A stretch of DNA of 28,693 nucleotides from a virus. The notes beneath the pieces are model-generated. The model saw nothing but the letters and a program-made list of their open reading frames with translations. It made no database searches and was not told where the DNA came from. Shown piece by piece: positions 2,264-12,495 of the stretch. How positions within the stretch are numbered: position 1 is the first letter of the stretch; each line of letters opens with the position of its first letter. The DNA is taken from the IMG/VR virus record IMGVR_UViG_3300031672_000007, positions 1 to 28,693 of that record, one strand, 5' to 3'. The position numbers were made by a program, and so were the translations under genes.

Positions 2264-3094
2264 CTAGAAGACCTGGTGATCCACGTCGTTGTAGATGCGC
2301 ACCACGTTATCGGCATGATACTCGGCATGAAAGCCTGATGTGAACTCAACGTAGGTGATCGTTTGCAAGTTCCAGTCAACCGATTGCGCCGATGAGATGG
2401 GCGTACCGACAATCAGGTGATAGTTTTTCGCCAGGGTCACGGCAGCAAGATACACATTGTTGCCGTCCTTCTCAACGCCGCTCAGGCAGAAGAGCAAGTT
2501 TTCTTGCTGCTCCGCGCCGTTGGTATAGGATTCCGAGCATGGCGCGCCAGTGAACGGGACACCAGATGCGCCTTGCGGGCCAGTTGCGCCAGGATTGCCC
2601 TGCGGCCCCTGTTTGCCCTGCGGGCCGGTGATATTGTTGTTGGTGTCGGCCCAGGCGGAATTGACACAGGAGTACACCTCGCCACCTGAAATGTCGATAT
2701 CCGTGTCACCAGTGGTACATGCGCCAGTGGGCGCGCCCTGGCTGGTTAGCACGTTGGAGCCATTGGTTCCGTTCGTGCCAGGTGTGCCAGCGGGGCCGAC
2801 AGGGCCAGTTGCACCTTGCGTTCCCTGCACGCCCGGCGCGCCTTGCGGGCCAGCGTCGCCTTTGGGGCCGGTCACACTCCAATTAACCAGGGTAGAGAAT
2901 GCGCCATCTGTACTGCAATCAAGCCCGCTATCCTGCGTGATAGTGGAACTGTCAATCGCGCCGGTTGAGGTGTTCTCACAGGCGTAAAAGGTCGTCCCTG
3001 AGATAGACTGGTGATACGCCAGCGCAGCACCGCCGCCTACAAGCGCGGTCAACACCAGCGCGAGGGCGGCAATCAAAACAAGAATCTTTTTCAT
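2264..3094 (-). CDS. Secreted collagen-like repeat protein, 276 aa
   Basis: The start at 3094 gives MKKILVLIAALALVLTALV, a textbook signal peptide (basic start, hydrophobic core, small residues GGGAALA near residue 25), with AGGAT placed upstream. The mature protein has a cysteine-bearing N-terminal domain and two Gly-X-Y tracts at about residues 78-115 (GPKGDAGPQGAPG onward) and 155-180 (GPQGKQGPQGNPG onward). A cysteine-containing spacer lies between them and a 90-residue C-terminal domain follows. Collagen-like tracts form trimeric stalks. In virions they occur in fibres, but the signal peptide points to export from the host cell. The lone - strand orientation, own terminator and dyad-rich upstream region fit a lysogenic-conversion cargo gene. 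The surface role is inferred. Confidence 0.85.
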   Translation of the reverse strand: MKKILVLIAALALVLTALVGGGAALAYHQSISGTTFYACENTSTGAIDSSTITQDSGLDCSTDGAFSTLVNWSVTGPKGDAGPQGAPGVQGTQGATGPVGPAGTPGTNGTNGSNVLTSQGAPTGACTTGDTDIDISGGEVYSCVNSAWADTNNNITGPQGKQGPQGNPGATGPQGASGVPFTGAPCSESYTNGAEQQENLLFCLSGVEKDGNNVYLAAVTLAKNYHLIVGTPISSAQSVDWNLQTITYVEFTSGFHAEYHADNVVRIYNDVDHQVF

Positions 3095-3106
3095 ACACAA
3101 TCCTTT

Positions 3107-3140
3107 CAACATGTTGAAGCAATTGCTTCTACCTGTAGAA
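3107..3140. promoter_or_regulatory. Three abutting dyads upstream of collagen-like gene
   Basis: CAACATGTTG (3107-3116), GAAGCAATTGCTTC (3116-3129) and TTCTAC-CT-GTAGAA (3127-3140) are perfect inverted repeats laid end to end, 13-46 bp upstream of the - strand start codon. They look like operator sites or a structured leader. Which protein binds them is unknown. Confidence 0.5.
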
Positions 3141-3205: not shown

Positions 3206-3291
3206 CTTGTACGGACAGGCGTTTACGATAATAGTTGTTAGTATGAGTGTAAAGGAAGAGGTTATATAGCAATTAGAACATGCTACCTAAC

Positions 3292-3526
3292 TAAAGAACT
3301 AAAGATTTAAAGATTTAAAGAAAGATATAATAATAATCTTTAGTTTATTATAGACGAGTTTAACCTGTACGGACATCCTATCCCCCGCAAGGGATATAAA
3401 GATAATTTTTACTGTTCTCTGTACATCTTTAGTTCTTTAGTTCTTTAGTTTGTTCTCCATTGGCTTGTGGTGTGGTTTCATTGCCATTTTTGGTTGTTGT
3501 AGAGCTTACTTTAGTTTCTTTAGTTT
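3292..3526. repeat. AT-rich iterons (TAAAGA family) in both orientations
   Basis: Four tandem 8-mers run from 3292 to 3323 (TAAAGAAC, TAAAGATT, TAAAGATT, TAAAGAAA). One TCTTTAGT lies at 3337-3344. Three tandem TCTTTAGT copies lie at 3426-3449 in the opposite sense, and a 9-bp tandem CTTTAGTTT pair lies at 3509-3526 abutting the tRNA fragment. The middle is extremely AT-rich (ATATAATAATAAT). Otherwise nothing gene-like is seen at 3210-3520. The cluster may be arm sites for integrase or excisionase, or replication iterons. Confidence 0.7.
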
Positions 3527-3561
3527 CCCGTAGCTCAGTGGATAGAGCGACAGATTGCGGA
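3524..3561 (+). tRNA. 5' half of tRNA-Arg(GCG), disrupted
   Basis: Reads as acceptor 5' strand TTTCCCG, TA, D stem GCTC, loop AGTGGATA, GAGC, G26, ACAGA and anticodon loop TTGCGGA (anticodon GCG), then stops being tRNA after 3561. The matching 3' half is on the other strand at 3691-3735. Acceptor bases 1-2 (TT) do not pair with that half and belong to the CTTTAGTTT repeat, so the 5' tip is eroded. Only bases 3-7 pair (5 of 7). Confidence 0.75.
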
Positions 3562-3575
3562 ACACCTCCAAATAT

Positions 3576-3617
3576 GCTATGCTTGTCAGGCAGACAGATG
3601 TAGACGGGATAGAGCAT
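3576..3617 (+). promoter_or_regulatory. Putative integrase arm sites, right arm
   Basis: GCTATGC (3576-3582) and GGGATAGAGCAT (3606-3617) lie 14 and 44 nt beyond the left core copy. Both recur in inverted orientation beside the right core copy (3747-3753 and 3762-3773). Confidence 0.5.
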
Positions 3618-3690
3618 CAGTCTGCGAGGCTATACCACAAGTATTGCTGGTTTTGCGGGCTAGTTGGTTGTCGCGTCTAAAGGATATAGC

Positions 3691-3735
3691 GATCCCGAGA
3701 GGGCTTGAACCTCCGACCTACAGATCCGCAATCTG
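3691..3735 (-). tRNA. 3' half of tRNA-Arg(GCG), disrupted
   Basis: Read on the - strand from 3735: CAGATTGCGGA (anticodon arm with loop TTGCGGA), TCTGT, variable AGGTC, T arm GGAGG-TTCAAGC-CCTCT (all five pairs form, one G-U), and acceptor 3' strand CGGGATC. The discriminator G is at 3690 and no CCA is encoded. There is no D arm or acceptor 5' strand upstream on this strand; the sequence there is GGGAACAAG. The fragment is therefore a tRNA 3' half of the kind phages carry at attP, or one separated by inversion. Confidence 0.8.
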
Positions 3736-3746
3736 CTTGTTCCCTC

Positions 3747-3773
3747 GCATAGCTTCTCATCATGCTCTATCCC
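3747..3773 (-). promoter_or_regulatory. Putative integrase arm sites, left arm
   Basis: On the - strand GGGATAGAGCAT (3773-3762) and GCTATGC (3753-3747) precede the core at 3735, 26 and 11 nt away. They mirror the copies at 3576-3617. TGCGAGG and ACAAG also recur beside both (3622-3640 and 3736-3750). Confidence 0.5.
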
Positions 3774-3782
3774 CTTGCAAGG
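3772..3782. repeat. Palindromic repeat copy 4
   Basis: CCCTTGCAAGG, core 3773-3782, immediately after the arm-type repeat upstream of the integrase start. Confidence 0.85.
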
Positions 3783-3817
3783 CAGTTACACCGTCAGAGT
3801 GTGTTTATGGAGGTTTC

Positions 3818-4756
3818 GTGCTTGTTCGTGAAGCGGTTGACGAATACATTGCCAGTCTCAAACGACTCCAGCCGCTTACGGTAGCTGGCTACACACAGCG
3901 CCTAGCTGTCTTTTGTGACTGGTGCGAGTGTCAACAGCCGCCTATCGAACTTGAAACAATACGGCGTGTGGTAGTCGATGCGTTCGTAGTGTTCTTGAGA
4001 GACACCAGAACGCCTCATAAGGTTGAAAGCGTACAAATATCGACCTACACCTTGCAAGGTTATGTGGCGGCCATCCTGGCGTTCCTGCATTGGTGTCTGG
4101 ATGATGAGGAATACAGCGCGTTTGTCAAAGCGGCCACGGTCGGCAGAATCAAAAAGCCAAAACTTGAGCAAACCGTCATCGAAATATTCGACAAAGCTCA
4201 ATTGGATGCGCTGTTTCTGTCCTGTAAGCAGGAATACAACGGCCATCTTCAGACGCGCGACAAAGCGATTCTGAGCCTGCTGCTGGACACCGGCATCCGC
4301 GCCAGCGAGCTTTGCCAGTTGGTCATTGGCAACGTTCACACCGATCCCAGGGACGCTTTTGTGAAAGTGCATGGCAAAGGCGACAAGTGGCGGGAGGTGG
4401 GATTAGGCGACCTGTCCAGGCGCGACATGAAATCGTATCTGCGTTTGTATCGCCTGGACGCGGCCCGCAGCGACGTCGTATTCGTTAATCGCTATGGCCG
4501 CGGGCTTACCGTCAACGGCTTAGAGCAGATCATCCGCCGTCTGGGCAAGTGGGCGGAAGTAGAGGGCGTGCGTTGTAGCCCGCACACGTTCCGCCACACC
4601 TTCGCTTGCAATTATCTTATCAACGGCGGCGATGTGTACGTGCTGAGTCGCCTGATGGGCCATACCAGTGTCCAGGTGACAGAACGATACTTGAAAGCGG
4701 TCAAAGCGAGCCAGGCGCGGCGTATTGGTCGCTCCGTCCTGGATGATGTGAAGTAA
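3818..4756 (+). CDS. int: Tyrosine recombinase / phage integrase, 312 aa
   Basis: Site-specific recombinase that joins phage and host attachment sites through a covalent 3'-phosphotyrosine. The N-terminal SAM-like core-binding domain spans about residues 1-105 (VREAVDEYIASLK onward). The catalytic domain shows the full set: R161 (TGIRASELC), K187/K190 (HGKGDKWRE), H256-x2-R259 (HTFRH), H282 (LMGHTS) and Y291 (ERYLKA). GTG 3818 is chosen because GGAGG (3809-3813) precedes it and the homology starts there. The frame stays open further upstream only because it crosses the tRNA and arm sequences. Its place directly beside the split tRNA-Arg makes that locus its likely substrate. A palindrome copy encodes TLQG at about residues 78-81. 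Confidence 0.93.
   Translation: MLVREAVDEYIASLKRLQPLTVAGYTQRLAVFCDWCECQQPPIELETIRRVVVDAFVVFLRDTRTPHKVESVQISTYTLQGYVAAILAFLHWCLDDEEYSAFVKAATVGRIKKPKLEQTVIEIFDKAQLDALFLSCKQEYNGHLQTRDKAILSLLLDTGIRASELCQLVIGNVHTDPRDAFVKVHGKGDKWREVGLGDLSRRDMKSYLRLYRLDAARSDVVFVNRYGRGLTVNGLEQIIRRLGKWAEVEGVRCSPHTFRHTFACNYLINGGDVYVLSRLMGHTSVQVTERYLKAVKASQARRIGRSVLDDVK
4049..4060. repeat. Palindromic repeat copy 5 (ACCTTGCAAGGT)
   Basis: Perfect 12-bp palindrome inside the integrase gene, reading TLQG. Outer bases differ from the usual form but keep the symmetry. Confidence 0.9.
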
Positions 4757-4774: not shown

Positions 4775-5086
4775 TTGGAAGAACAAACAAAGCCTATCCG
4801 CGTGCGCATTCAAAACGAAGGTCAACCGGGCTACATGACCAGAGTAACTGATGTTGAGACTGGCAAGGAGCTTGCTATGGTCAAGTCAGCAGACCTTACT
4901 ATCCGGTTTGATGCCAGTGACAGGAATATGCCTGTTGCGCATCTTACCGTGTACGCGCCGGTTGTGGATGTGATAGCCGACGCGGACATCAAGTATATTT
5001 GTCCGTGTTGTGGGTGTCCGGTAGCACCTCCCTTGCAAGGTGATACAGCAGACGATGATCCTTTTGCGTTGGATCCAAAGTTGTAG
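4775..5086 (+). CDS. Hypothetical protein with CPCCGCP cysteine cluster, 103 aa
   Basis: TTG 4775 is preferred because AAAGGAGC ends 8 nt upstream. TTG 4769 would be too close to it. The N-terminal two thirds look like a beta-rich fold (RVTDVETGKELAMVKSADLT, then VAHLTVYAPVVDVIADADI). A tight cysteine motif follows (YICPCCGCP, about residues 78-86) that could bind a metal. A palindrome copy then encodes APPLQGD, followed by an acidic tail. Small beta proteins of this general look are common in phage early regions, but no family is firmly recognised. It begins right after the integrase stop and may be co-transcribed with it. Confidence 0.65.
   Translation: MEEQTKPIRVRIQNEGQPGYMTRVTDVETGKELAMVKSADLTIRFDASDRNMPVAHLTVYAPVVDVIADADIKYICPCCGCPVAPPLQGDTADDDPFALDPKL
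5031..5040. repeat. Palindromic repeat copy 6
   Basis: CCTTGCAAGG with left flank CTC and right flank TGA, in frame as PLQG near the C-terminus of the 103-aa protein. Confidence 0.9.
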
Positions 5087-7729: not shown

Positions 7730-9514
7730 ATGCTGTTTTATAATTCTTCCTTGCAAGGCGAACATCTTGTGATTGTCTTATTGGATCGGGTGACAATCGA
7801 AGCGGAGCAGTGCCGTCGTGATTTGACGCTATTTGTCAAAGCCGCGTGGCCGGTAATCGAGCCAGGAACACCATTATTGTGGAACTGGCATCTTGACGCT
7901 TTGTGTCTGCATTTACAGGCTGTTGCCGAGGGCAAGATCAATCGCCTGCTGATCAACATCGCCCCTGGTCATGCTAAGTCCTCTGTCGTTTCTGTCCTTT
8001 ATCCTGTCTGGTCATGGATCAACGATCCGGCTATTCGCTGGTTATGCGCGTCTCACAGTCTTGACCTCGCTATCAGAGACAATAAGAACCGGCGCGACCT
8101 GATAGAGTCCGACTGGTTTCAATCGCGTTATGGACACGTTTTCCAGTTATCGAGTTCACAGAACGTCAAGAGCTTTTTCGAGAATAACAAACGCGGCTAC
8201 AGTCTGGCAACGGCTGTTCGTAGCTCCGCAACTGGCAAACGTGGGTCGCATCTTCTGATAGACGACCCAAACAATGCGATGGCCGGTGAAGCGGATATCC
8301 TGGCCGTCAAAGATTGGTTCGGCAAAACCTGGACAAGCCGTCTGAACGACCAGGAACACGGCGCAATGGTCGTGGTTGGACAGCGCCTCGACGAACGGGA
8401 TTTATCCGGTCACATCTTGAAACTTGGCGGCTGGACGCATCTGAACTTGCCAGAAGAATTTGAACCTGACAGAAAATGCATCACTTATCTTCCTGGTCAA
8501 CAGCCAACATCGACAGAGCCTGTCACCGTTGAGGTCAACAGTACCACGACGCGGCGCAAGAAATACAAGGTTGTCTTTGTCAACAGCAAAGCGACGAACT
8601 GCACCTGTGAAGCGCGGTTCTATCATCCTGAAAAGCCCTGTAAGCATATGGAAGCGGCAAAGCCGCCAAAGCTTGACCTTGCCCCATTTTGGCAAGACCC
8701 ACGAACCGAACCAGGTGAACTCTTGTGGCCGGCCAAGTTTCCCAAAGAGGTGATAGAAAACCTTAAAAAAGGTCTGACCAGCATCAACTATGCCGCGCAA
8801 TTTCAGCAGAGTCCAGTTCCTGCAGGCGGCGCGAAGTTCAAAGAAAAATGGTTCCGGTACTTTTCCTTGCAAGGCAGCGACTACGTCCTGCATACGCCTG
8901 ATGGTGATAAGCACATGTCGCAATCGCTGTGCTGGCGGTTTGGCACGGTTGACCTGGCTATCTCTCAGAAGCAATCCGCAGACTTCACCGTCTTTTCCAT
9001 CTGGGATGTCACGCCTGACAAAGATTTGATATTGGTCAAGATGGTCCGAGGTCACTTTACGGATGGGGAGCAGGCCAATCTTTTAAAGCAGATTTATCAT
9101 TCAATGGGCTTGCTGTACTGGAAAATTGAAAGTGTCGCCTATCAACAGAGCTTTGTCATGCGCGGCATCTCGCTCGGTATCCCTTGCATGGAGTACAACC
9201 CGCGCGGCGCAGGCGACAAGGTTCTACGCGCCACACCGTTCGCAATCTGGTTAGAAAACGGCAAAGCGTATTTCCCAGAAGAGCAATCGGTAGACTTTAT
9301 GCACGATGTCAAAGAGGAACTGCTGAAATTCCCGAAAGGCGCGCACGACGATATTGTGGACACCTGCTCAATGGCGGCGGACGAAATTATCGCGCCGCGT
9401 ATCCCCATGCAAGAAGCGGTAGAGACAGCGCAGCCCGTTGTTGTTGCGACGGCTGCGGACATTGCCAGGATTGACCCTTTCAAGTGGCTTGACGATCATG
9501 GGGGTAGGGGATGA
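7730..9514 (+). CDS. terL: Terminase large subunit with SWIM-like zinc finger insert, 594 aa
   Basis: ATP-driven DNA packaging motor and headful or site nuclease. The ATPase part has Walker A (APGHAKSS, residues 78-85) and Walker B (LLIDD, 175-179). The RNase H-like nuclease starts near VDLAISQKQSADFTVFSIWD and ends with HDDIVD (539-544). Between them, residues about 262-325 hold an extra block whose CTC-x10-CKH (C291, C293, C304, H306) matches the SWIM zinc-finger pattern CxC-xn-CxH. Flanking text (WTHLNLPEE, then DPRTEPGELLWP) is ordinary terminase. ATG 7730 is preferred since GTG 7685 lies inside the DnaA-box and promoter region. Palindrome copies encode SLQG twice. The end overlaps the portal start by 4 nt. 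Confidence 0.95.
   Translation: MLFYNSSLQGEHLVIVLLDRVTIEAEQCRRDLTLFVKAAWPVIEPGTPLLWNWHLDALCLHLQAVAEGKINRLLINIAPGHAKSSVVSVLYPVWSWINDPAIRWLCASHSLDLAIRDNKNRRDLIESDWFQSRYGHVFQLSSSQNVKSFFENNKRGYSLATAVRSSATGKRGSHLLIDDPNNAMAGEADILAVKDWFGKTWTSRLNDQEHGAMVVVGQRLDERDLSGHILKLGGWTHLNLPEEFEPDRKCITYLPGQQPTSTEPVTVEVNSTTTRRKKYKVVFVNSKATNCTCEARFYHPEKPCKHMEAAKPPKLDLAPFWQDPRTEPGELLWPAKFPKEVIENLKKGLTSINYAAQFQQSPVPAGGAKFKEKWFRYFSLQGSDYVLHTPDGDKHMSQSLCWRFGTVDLAISQKQSADFTVFSIWDVTPDKDLILVKMVRGHFTDGEQANLLKQIYHSMGLLYWKIESVAYQQSFVMRGISLGIPCMEYNPRGAGDKVLRATPFAIWLENGKAYFPEEQSVDFMHDVKEELLKFPKGAHDDIVDTCSMAADEIIAPRIPMQEAVETAQPVVVATAADIARIDPFKWLDDHGGRG
7749..7758. repeat. Palindromic repeat copy 8
   Basis: CCTTGCAAGG in frame as SLQG, eight codons into the terminase gene. 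Confidence 0.9.
8865..8874. repeat. Palindromic repeat copy 9
   Basis: CCTTGCAAGG in frame as SLQG, in the linker between terminase ATPase and nuclease domains. Confidence 0.9.
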
Positions 9515-12495
9515 GCAGTCGCAACCAGCGCCGCCGTTCGCAACAAAAACGCCCACAACCACAACCTACGTCAGAAGTTCGCCTGATTGTGGAGGAAAAA
9601 GTCAATCCCGCGTATGCTGGTGTGTCGCTGTTCTCGGATGCGCCACAACCGCATATGATGCCAAAGAACTACCTGACTTATGCGCGTGAAGGGTATAAGG
9701 GCAATCCAACACTTTTCAAATGCATCAACTATATCATTACCAATGGCGCGGCCATACCGCCAAAGCTCTATACCGATGATACCCGTCAAACCGAAATCAA
9801 ATCTCATGCTCTGCTCGACAAACTGAAACGGCCAAATCCTGAGAAGTCCGGTGTCCAGTTCAGGAAAGCCGTCATGGGCTACCTGCTGGTCGCTGGCAAT
9901 TCCTACATCTACGCCATACGCAAGGGCATAGCTGGGCCGCCTGACGAACTATGGCCCATGCAACCGGATAAGATTAAAATCTTGCCTACAGCTACCCGCG
10001 GCATTGTGGGCTATGAATACGACGATTTCAAGGGAACGGATAAAAATCCGATCTTAGCTGCGAACATGCTGCACCTCATGACATGGAATCCCGATGATCC
10101 GTTGTTCGGACTGTCCGGTATCGAAGTGGGCGCGCTCATGGTTGATCAAGTGACTGCCGCGCAAAAATGGAATTTGGCCTTACTCCAGAATGGCGCGCGC
10201 ATGTCAGGCGCATTCACGACGCCAATCATCCTGGAACCAAATGCGCGTTCAAAGCTAGAGGATAAGGTCAACGAAAAGATGGCGGGCTATCGTAACGCGG
10301 GCAAGATAGCCGTTCTCGACGGCGGCTTGCAATGGAACCAAATCGGCGCGCCCCCGTCCGAAATGGACTGGCTACAAGCACTGCAATATTGGGGCGGTAG
10401 CCTTGCGAACCTCTATAACATGCCGCCACAACTGATAGGCGACACATCCTCCACAACCTATGACAATATGGAGCAGGCCAAAGCGGCGTCGTATACCGAA
10501 GAGATATTTCCCATCTTAGATGAGATGTACGCCGAATTTACGATGTGGCTTGTGCCGATGTATCCTGACTTGCCAGCGACTGCCACGCTCTACTATGACA
10601 AGGATTCAGTGGAAGTCGTGCAGTCGGTCATTCAGCAACAGAAGACAGCCAAAGCGCAGCGCGCAAACACGGCCTGGATGCAAGGCTCAATGATGCTCGA
10701 CGAAGCGCGCGAACTGCAAGGTTTGCCGCCACTGCCAAGTAAGATGGGGCAAGTCTTCCGTTTCGGCGCGGTGATTGTGCGCGCATCGGAGATGGATGAT
10801 TACGCCGATCAATCCCTCAAGACGCCAGCCGCGCCACCCGCGCCCGTTCCTGAGCAACTCTTGAATGCGCCCGCGCCCGGTAGCACACCGCCGCCAACAA
10901 CACCTCCCTTGCAAGGGAACGATACGAAACCAGGAGAAGAGGATAATGGCAAGCAACCTCCACCAGATGCTAGCGGTGATACTGATAGCACTCCTGGCAA
11001 ATCTCGAAATATACCTGCTCATTTTGGCTATCGTTACGATTCGAAAGCAAAAAATGACGATGAGGAAGAGCAGACCGGCGCAATGGTCGCGTTCTTCCTT
11101 GACCCCAAAATCGCCAAACAGGTAGCGATTCCAGACGGCGAATCGCCTGACGATCTCCATATCACCTTAGCGTTTTTGGGTGATGCATCGGAGCTTGATA
11201 TCGATGTTTCGACGCTCCGAAAAACGCTTGCGTCGTATGCTTCTGAGGCAATTCCCTTGCAAGGGTCAATCTCAGGGATAGGTCGTTTTGCCGCGCAAGA
11301 CGGAGAATCGCCTGTCTATGCCTCGGTCAATATTGCCGGGCTACAGCAGTGGCGCGCCGATTTGGTCAAGCAATTGGAGGGCGCGGACATCGACGTGGAT
11401 AAGACATTCGACTTCACGCCACACATCACGCTGGACTATATCGACGCGGACGCGGCCATGCCAGCTATTGACGTGCCTGATGTGGCATTGTCGTTTGATA
11501 TGTTGTGGCTGTGCATAGGCGATAAACGCTATTCCTTCTCCATAGGCGATGAACAATATCCACAAAAACGCCGTCGCTTTGTTGCGACGAAAGCGCTTGA
11601 CCTCACCACCAAAGAAGAGAAGCAAGCCTATCTGGAGCAGGTAGAGGCCGCGCGCCACACGTGGGAAGCGACGATATCCGGTCGCTTACAAGGCTATTTC
11701 AAGTCCGAACAACAATCTGTTGTGGCGGCTATTAAGCATGGCACGCCCACGGCAACCGATGAGGATCATCTGCTGAACCAGGCCAAAGCGGCCATCGACA
11801 AACACAAAAGCAAGCTGCAATCGATTATTGCGACGGCCTGGCAAGATGTGGCGGGCTACTTTGCCAAACAGGTTGACCAGGAACTGCAACAAGCTAAAGC
11901 ACAGCCAACACATCAACACAAAGGCGTTGATTTTTTCTCGACGCAAATTATTCAGTATATTTTGGCATTGGCAAATCATAAAGCACTTGGGATTAACGAA
12001 ACCATACAAAACATGATTCGTGTGGCGCTTGCCAACGGTATAGAGGCAGGTGAATCCTTGCCACAATTGGCCGCGCGTATTGAAAACCTGTATGACAATT
12101 CCATTGTACCGAACAGGCCGGCTGTGATCGCCGCCACGGAGGTTTGTTCAGCGTCGAATTATGGCAGTATGCAATCGGCTATGCAATCGGGACTGACTTT
12201 GAATAAAGTTTGGCAAGCCACACCGGACAATCATACGCGACCAGCGCATGTTGCAGCGGACGGCCAAAGTGTGCCGATGAACACGCCGTTTAGCGTTGGC
12301 GGTGAAAATCTGAGTTATCCTGGCGATCCGAACGGTTCGGAAAATATGGTGGTCAATTGCCGCTGCGCCATGTATTACCAGCGCGTCGCCAGTACCGCCT
12401 CAACCGATGATAGCAGTTCTGATGACGGTTCAGGTGATGAAGAGAAGCGGCGCAAGCGACTGGAATACAAACGGTTTATGGAGGTGCTGGTATGA
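9511..12495 (+). CDS. Portal - 2H phosphoesterase - MuF minor head fusion, 994 aa
   Basis: Three proteins in one chain. Residues about 1-430 are an HK97-type portal, the dodecameric DNA gate of the head (YAREGYKGNPTLFKCINYI, VAGNSYIYAIR, YNMPPQLIGD). A Pro/Asp-rich linker (430-525) carries a palindrome copy (PLQG). Residues about 531-690 are a 2H phosphoesterase (2'-5' RNA ligase-like) with both catalytic HxT motifs, H550-I-T552 (HITLAFLG) and H638-I-T640 (FTPHITLDY). Residues about 700-970 match the SPP1 gp7/Mu F minor-head family, ending ADGQSVPMNTPFSVGGE, YPGDPNGS and NCRC. 2H enzymes open or cut 2'-5' or cyclic phosphodiesters; the substrate here is unknown. It starts inside the terminase stop (ATGA). 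Confidence 0.92.
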   Translation: MSSRNQRRRSQQKRPQPQPTSEVRLIVEEKVNPAYAGVSLFSDAPQPHMMPKNYLTYAREGYKGNPTLFKCINYIITNGAAIPPKLYTDDTRQTEIKSHALLDKLKRPNPEKSGVQFRKAVMGYLLVAGNSYIYAIRKGIAGPPDELWPMQPDKIKILPTATRGIVGYEYDDFKGTDKNPILAANMLHLMTWNPDDPLFGLSGIEVGALMVDQVTAAQKWNLALLQNGARMSGAFTTPIILEPNARSKLEDKVNEKMAGYRNAGKIAVLDGGLQWNQIGAPPSEMDWLQALQYWGGSLANLYNMPPQLIGDTSSTTYDNMEQAKAASYTEEIFPILDEMYAEFTMWLVPMYPDLPATATLYYDKDSVEVVQSVIQQQKTAKAQRANTAWMQGSMMLDEARELQGLPPLPSKMGQVFRFGAVIVRASEMDDYADQSLKTPAAPPAPVPEQLLNAPAPGSTPPPTTPPLQGNDTKPGEEDNGKQPPPDASGDTDSTPGKSRNIPAHFGYRYDSKAKNDDEEEQTGAMVAFFLDPKIAKQVAIPDGESPDDLHITLAFLGDASELDIDVSTLRKTLASYASEAIPLQGSISGIGRFAAQDGESPVYASVNIAGLQQWRADLVKQLEGADIDVDKTFDFTPHITLDYIDADAAMPAIDVPDVALSFDMLWLCIGDKRYSFSIGDEQYPQKRRRFVATKALDLTTKEEKQAYLEQVEAARHTWEATISGRLQGYFKSEQQSVVAAIKHGTPTATDEDHLLNQAKAAIDKHKSKLQSIIATAWQDVAGYFAKQVDQELQQAKAQPTHQHKGVDFFSTQIIQYILALANHKALGINETIQNMIRVALANGIEAGESLPQLAARIENLYDNSIVPNRPAVIAATEVCSASNYGSMQSAMQSGLTLNKVWQATPDNHTRPAHVAADGQSVPMNTPFSVGGENLSYPGDPNGSENMVVNCRCAMYYQRVASTASTDDSSSDDGSGDEEKRRKRLEYKRFMEVLV
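10905..10918. repeat. Palindromic repeat copy 10
   Basis: Perfect TCCCTTGCAAGGGA, in frame as PPLQGN, in the disordered linker between portal and 2H domains. Confidence 0.95.
11253..11266. repeat. Palindromic repeat copy 11
   Basis: CCCTTGCAAGGG (11254-11265), in frame as IPLQGS within the 2H phosphoesterase domain, between its two HxT motifs. Confidence 0.95.

Follow-up and report, generated by a model that had tools for sequence, protein, structure and literature searches.

Opposed tRNA halves beside a Xer-like phage integrase resemble the inverted products of intramolecular recombination

The anticodon arm of a tRNA is a classic place for integrase crossover, and Xer-like integrases are able to work on simple sites. 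Phages and islands with tyrosine integrases that target tRNA genes carry a canonical attP (Islander, PMC4383910), whose core spans 30-45 bp and holds the 3' half of the tRNA (PMC10865867). A different style, tRNA-dependent lysogeny, has been described in actinobacteriophages whose overlap with the host tRNA gene is only 8-17 bp and whose genomes include an entire tRNA of matching isotype; according to its authors, the relation of this style to canonical systems is not clear (PMC10865867). Integrase-driven inversions, in turn, are known from the Thermococcales (PMC5495485, PMC8371274).

The locus analyzed here belongs to phage record IMGVR_UViG_3300031672_000007, and coordinates refer to the whole 28,693-bp stretch of DNA under study (hereafter the window). 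Like a canonical attP, it has a tyrosine integrase beside a tRNA 3' half that begins in the anticodon loop and continues to the gene's end. Unlike a canonical attP, which holds one half only, loci of this type add an opposed 5' half of the same tRNA at a distance of 74-167 bp. We found no description of opposed tRNA halves at an attP in the open-access literature, as represented largely by titles and abstracts. Judged from sequence, the halves have the appearance of an inverted product pair that the neighboring tyrosine integrase generated within a single molecule, from attP and a captured tRNA attB. We consider it probable that the module is the attachment site of a temperate tailed phage, with the inner half as its working attP and the outer half as a decaying inversion product.

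Anatomy of the attachment locus

The record is a linear IMG/VR entry whose genes include those for a terminase, a portal, a prohead protease and a capsid protein. The outer site (3524-3561, plus strand; TTTCCCGTAGCTCAGTGGATAGAGCGACAGATTGCGGA) comprises the 5' half of a tRNA-Arg(GCG), which reaches from acceptor stem to anticodon loop; its bases 1-2 are altered, and we read it as a relic. Counted from base 3, it is identical to its counterpart in the related locus L006 (36/36 nt). The inner site, adjacent to the integrase gene (3691-3735, minus strand; CAGATTGCGGATCTGTAGGTCGGAGGTTCAAGCCCTCTCGGGATC), is the 3' half of the same tRNA and the likely working attP. It starts in the anticodon arm and retains an intact T stem and acceptor strand, and its use would rebuild the host tRNA. 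Between the halves lies a 129-bp spacer (3562-3690; 74-167 bp in relatives). Both halves contain the 11-nt core CAGATTGCGGA, which covers the anticodon stem and loop and reads directly at 3551-3561 on the plus strand and, inverted relative to that copy, at 3735-3725 on the minus strand. The preliminary description had reported these opposed halves and their common inverted core, and every coordinate it gave for them checks.

A flank at 3736-3817, containing the palindrome CCCCTTGCAAGG, connects the inner site to the gene for a Xer-like tyrosine integrase (3818-4756, plus strand; putative GTG start codon at 3818), and a similar palindrome precedes the integrase in most relatives with split halves. 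The protein matches the Pfam Phage_integrase family (PF00589, 2.9e-31) and several NCBIfam profiles of the XerC, XerD and XerA types, the latter all below cut-off, and no separate N-terminal arm-binding domain was recognized in it. Its catalytic residues R163, K189, H258, R261, H284 and Y293 (numbered from window position 3812) are invariant across the integrase alignment, so that the tRNA-half site lies beside an integrase with intact catalytic residues, as expected of a tyrosine-integrase attP. Searches for kin elsewhere recovered no near relative of the phage by DNA among GenBank phages, and the integrase relatives in GenBank phages were below 30% identity among the matches listed. An integrase search of bacterial genomes found no close relative, and neither a host genome nor a prophage came to light for this phage. 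The rebuilt tRNA described below is only 60-90% identical to plasmid and phage tRNAs and points to no host.

AT-rich CTTTAGTT repeats on both strands occupy 3289-3526, extending into the first bases of the 5' half, and may serve as arm sites for the integrase or as an array for replication or regulation. Immediately to the left of the attachment module, at 3289-3450, they form two 54-nt arms that are 80% complementary and 54 nt apart; at the matching position, L004, L014 and L176 carry other short repeats. Within the inter-half spacer, 3607-3626 (GGATAGAGCATCAGTCTGCG) shows 80% identity to 3540-3559 of the 5' half and may be what is left of an earlier tRNA 5' half in more advanced decay. A 10-bp palindrome, CCTTGCAAGG, occurs 17 times between 706 and 24399 (for example at 706, 1707, 3773, 5031, 10907, 15621 and 20343), against 0.03 copies expected for a random 10-mer in 28.7 kb. 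Its copies lie frequently at gene boundaries and in some cases within genes. It is also present in split-half relatives, with 5 copies in the L013 stretch, and may serve as an array of repressor operators or stoperators or else represent a repeat found host-wide. Two protein-coding features of the window also deserve mention: beside the attachment module, 2264-3112 (minus strand) encodes a protein of 282 aa in which Pfam recognizes collagen triple-helix repeats (E 1.4e-10), and a single 994-aa open reading frame at 9511-12495 combines a phage portal, a 2'-5' RNA ligase/LigT-like phosphoesterase and a Mu F-like domain.

Relatives with split tRNA halves and decay of the outer half

Relatives were gathered with the integrase of the window, with alignments of its relatives, and with a DNA pattern derived from the 5' half. 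Ten other IMG/VR phages with related Xer-like integrases share one order: the 5' half on the plus strand, 74-167 bp of intervening sequence, the 3' half on the minus strand and the integrase gene on the plus strand. With half boundaries set by hand from sequence and pairing, and isotypes read from the anticodon of the inner half, these loci hold halves of tRNA-Arg with the anticodons GCG (L006 and L193, two different tRNAs), CCG (L013, L014, L176, L178 and L179), TCG (L189) and TCT (L093), and of tRNA-Leu with the anticodon TAA (L004). Just outside the tRNA-Leu 5' half of L004, a stretch at 4802-4823 (GGGCGGCGTAGCTCAGTCGGTA) resembles a tRNA 5' end cut off in the D loop and may be a relic of an earlier capture. 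An arrangement in which related phages carry the fragments far apart would have spoken against the preliminary description; the survey instead found them close together, with the layout kept in all ten. All 11 split-layout loci were assembled in the split state, and the postulated ancestral form, with an intact tRNA, was absent from every fetched contig. For 11 records, which are linear and may be fragments, no Rfam tRNA match exceeded the cut-off.

Several further loci lie at the margins of this set. The record of L190 starts within a tRNA-Arg(TCT) 3' half. L095, with a more distant integrase, has its 5' half adjoining the integrase gene and its 3' half outside, and may be a mirror-image case; the half distal to the integrase is again the damaged one, with a T stem of 4/5 pairs and acceptor strands that pair at 2/7 positions. 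L003, L017 and L094 encode related integrases, yet have no recognizable halves, and L016 has little sequence upstream; a tRNA covariance search of these four records returned nothing. About 130 other integrase loci lack opposed halves, and several outside the clade, such as L019, L026, L030 and L036, show the ordinary design, in which a lone 3' half shares its strand with the integrase gene.

The acceptor strands of the two halves pair at 7/7 positions in 9 of the 11 split loci, at 5 in the window and at 6 in L014, whereas strands combined across different isotypes average 4.4 pairs, indicating that the halves of one locus derive from one tRNA gene. Where undamaged, the two halves also share 5-12 nt of anticodon-arm sequence. 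Identical cores are seen in the window (CAGATTGCGGA, 11 nt), L006 (ATTGCGGAT, 9 nt), L176 (GGTCTCCGGAAC, 12 nt) and L189 (CTTCGGAT, 8 nt), and those of the other loci are shorter or mutated. Such an overlap supports strand exchange, since the two products of one exchange must share it and unrelated fragments need not. The proposal that the integrase acted within one molecule on an inverted attP and captured attB thereby gains support, the shared anticodon-arm sequence being present in every relative.

Decay is confined to one side. In all 11 loci the inner T stem is complete (5/5) and the integrase-adjacent half is intact, whereas L013 and L178 have broken D stems in the outer half. Between outer and inner half, the 7-nt anticodon loop is exactly the same in four loci (the window, L006, L176 and L189) and mismatched in the other seven, in two of them by deletion: the outer halves of L178 and L179 have lost part of the loop, the outer-half loop differs in L193 and L004, and L013 has an outer TCG anticodon and an inner CCG. 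Within two pairs of close relatives (L178/L179 and L014/L176), differences amount to 9/76 in the outer half and 0/80 in the inner half (Fisher p=0.0012).

The integrase tree groups L093 with L176 (94/90) and places L014 next (98/92). L093 carries tRNA-Arg(TCT) in both halves, while L176 and L014 carry tRNA-Arg(CCG), and L014 and L093 have their integrase-side flank in common; the halves therefore change together as the surroundings stay. To account for such joint change, one must suppose that the locus returned repeatedly to an intact form, that entire modules were exchanged or that the outer half has a use; whole-module transfer between phages could mimic it. A promoter-like sequence stands directly 5' of the outer half in L178, L179, L189, L176 and L093. 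A tRNA gene that once began here would explain it, but it could equally drive the integrase gene; integration at the inner site would then separate promoter and gene.

Restoration by in-silico inversion and competing explanations

ARAGORN reported no tRNA anywhere in the window as sequenced. Once 3562-3724 (163 bp) was inverted in silico, it returned a 74-base tRNA-Arg(gcg) with complete D, anticodon and T stems and 5/7 acceptor pairs, in agreement with the inversion predicted in the preliminary description. Acceptor pairs 1-2 are missing because the last TTCTTTAGTTT copy (3516-3526) extends over the first two bases of the 5' half. The junctions of the flipped form would read CAGATTGCGGA then TCTGTAGG on the plus strand and AACAAGCAGATTGCGGA then ACACC on the minus strand. 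A flip scan covered 143 integrase loci and ~57,000 candidate flips, each with a 6-nt inverted match. With loci holding a complete tRNA set aside, it restored a tRNA in six members of the clade and, as a dubious partial, in L022; on this result we reject chance as the source of the layout. The signal at L164 was discarded, as that locus has an ordinary complete tRNA, and a flip-derived tRNA-Asp in L003 (1589/1824), distant from the integrase gene, was put down to chance. We also set aside a tRNA made from two RNAs, in which the halves would pair only through the acceptor and anticodon stems, the outer halves being damaged.

The anatomy suggests the following history. In an ancestor, a short-core attP would have had a complete phage tRNA gene nearby, inverted with respect to it. 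The integrase, treating this tRNA as attB, would have inverted the DNA from there to attP and left attL-like and attR-like sites facing each other, and the phage would thus have gained an attP that repairs the host gene for that tRNA. On integration, crossover at the host anticodon loop would yield a whole tRNA, its 5' half supplied by the host, its 3' half by the phage, with the core between them. Once the inversion had taken place, a useful inner half would be kept, and an outer half without use would decay; mutation of the core in the outer half would then lock the arrangement. In the window, with its identical 11-nt cores, occasional flipping is possible. Three observations weigh against this history: no fetched contig showed the intact form, the related integrases of L003, L017 and L094 lie at loci lacking halves, and near relatives (L093 compared with L014 and L176) differ in both halves at once.

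Four other accounts of the observed state, and one extension of the history just outlined, were weighed against these data. Were the integrase to keep flipping 3562-3724, some phage or prophage DNA would hold an intact, expressed tRNA-Arg(GCG). The identical cores of the window, L006, L176 and L189 (11, 9, 12 and 8 nt), the general ability of Xer-like integrases to use simple sites (the NCBIfam Xer matches being below cut-off) and the promoter-like sequences 5' of the outer half in five relatives would all suit such a live switch. We nevertheless regard it as unlikely: all 11 loci are split, which for the four with perfect cores would occur about 1 time in 16 given balanced flipping and random assembled orientation; the outer halves are structurally damaged; and the flipped tRNA of the window lacks acceptor pairs 1-2. 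The alteration of outer loops in 7/11 loci, twice through deletion, makes flipping improbable as a maintained function of the clade in particular, and the tRNA switch put forward in the preliminary description finds no support as a standing device. Inverted sites with matching cores are limited to the window, L006, L176 and L189, the other seven having a loop mismatch or deletion. There is a slim chance, marginally better than that of the live switch, that the window and intact-core relatives such as L006, L176 and L189 toggle between two modes of residence in one tRNA gene, a split form whose attP repairs the host tRNA and a flipped form with a short-core attP and a phage tRNA; the integrase would do the switching, and the phage could change its target by exchanging the tRNA while flipped.

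The outer half might alternatively have been copied separately from a host tRNA gene, by gene conversion, illegitimate recombination or template switch, and serve another role, for example as leader RNA of the integrase gene or as an integrase-binding site. It may indeed sit in such a leader if the upstream promoter is real, and the joint change of halves in L014, L176 and L093 with constant flanks hints at a need for matching. This origin is distinctly unlikely, as it leaves both the shared anticodon-arm sequence and the outer-only decay unexplained, and no conserved RNA structure was recognized in the region; an Rfam search of the attachment region gave sub-threshold tRNA matches and chance matches only. 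Still less probable is the use of both halves for integration, in either orientation, with one whole tRNA left each time. Each site does hold one half ending in the same core, so that either crossover rebuilds a tRNA on paper, and the outer TCG and inner CCG of L013 could fit different tRNA genes; against this, outer cores are broken in L178, L179, L193 and L004, outer halves are damaged, and ordinary attPs elsewhere hold one half only. An assembly chimera of attL and attR sequences would be in keeping with a metagenomic contig in which attL-like and attR-like sequences adjoin, but we reject it as scarcely conceivable because ten other contigs, from separate phages with different tRNAs and different spacers, have the same layout. 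An integrase-made inversion followed by one-sided decay stays our preferred explanation.

Relation to described integration systems

How phages gain the tRNA half of an attP, or change their target tRNA, is not settled, and the module offers a concrete and testable bridge. Should the proposed origin be true, one inversion converts a phage tRNA plus short-core attP into an attP with a tRNA half. The clade is natural material for such a test: it spans several isoacceptors, its outer halves are decayed to differing degrees, and it may include a mirror case.

The closest parallel to the flipped form is tRNA-dependent lysogeny, as inversion would leave the window with a short attP core of 11 bp alongside a complete phage tRNA of matching isotype. 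The observed form differs in lacking an intact tRNA, and its integrase-adjacent site carries 45 nt of tRNA, compared with cores of ~8-17 bp, a range entered (at 11 bp) only if flipped. The phage tRNA of Fionnbharth lies in direct orientation to the attP core, and recombination there would therefore delete rather than invert. Inversion by the tyrosine integrase of a mobile element recalls the Thermococcales, where, unlike the small attP/tRNA inversion within a phage genome proposed here, large archaeal chromosomal inversions involve repeated segments. The form observed in the window is canonical, its flipped form would have the tRNA-dependent layout, and with a single inversion between them the locus links two known styles of integration.
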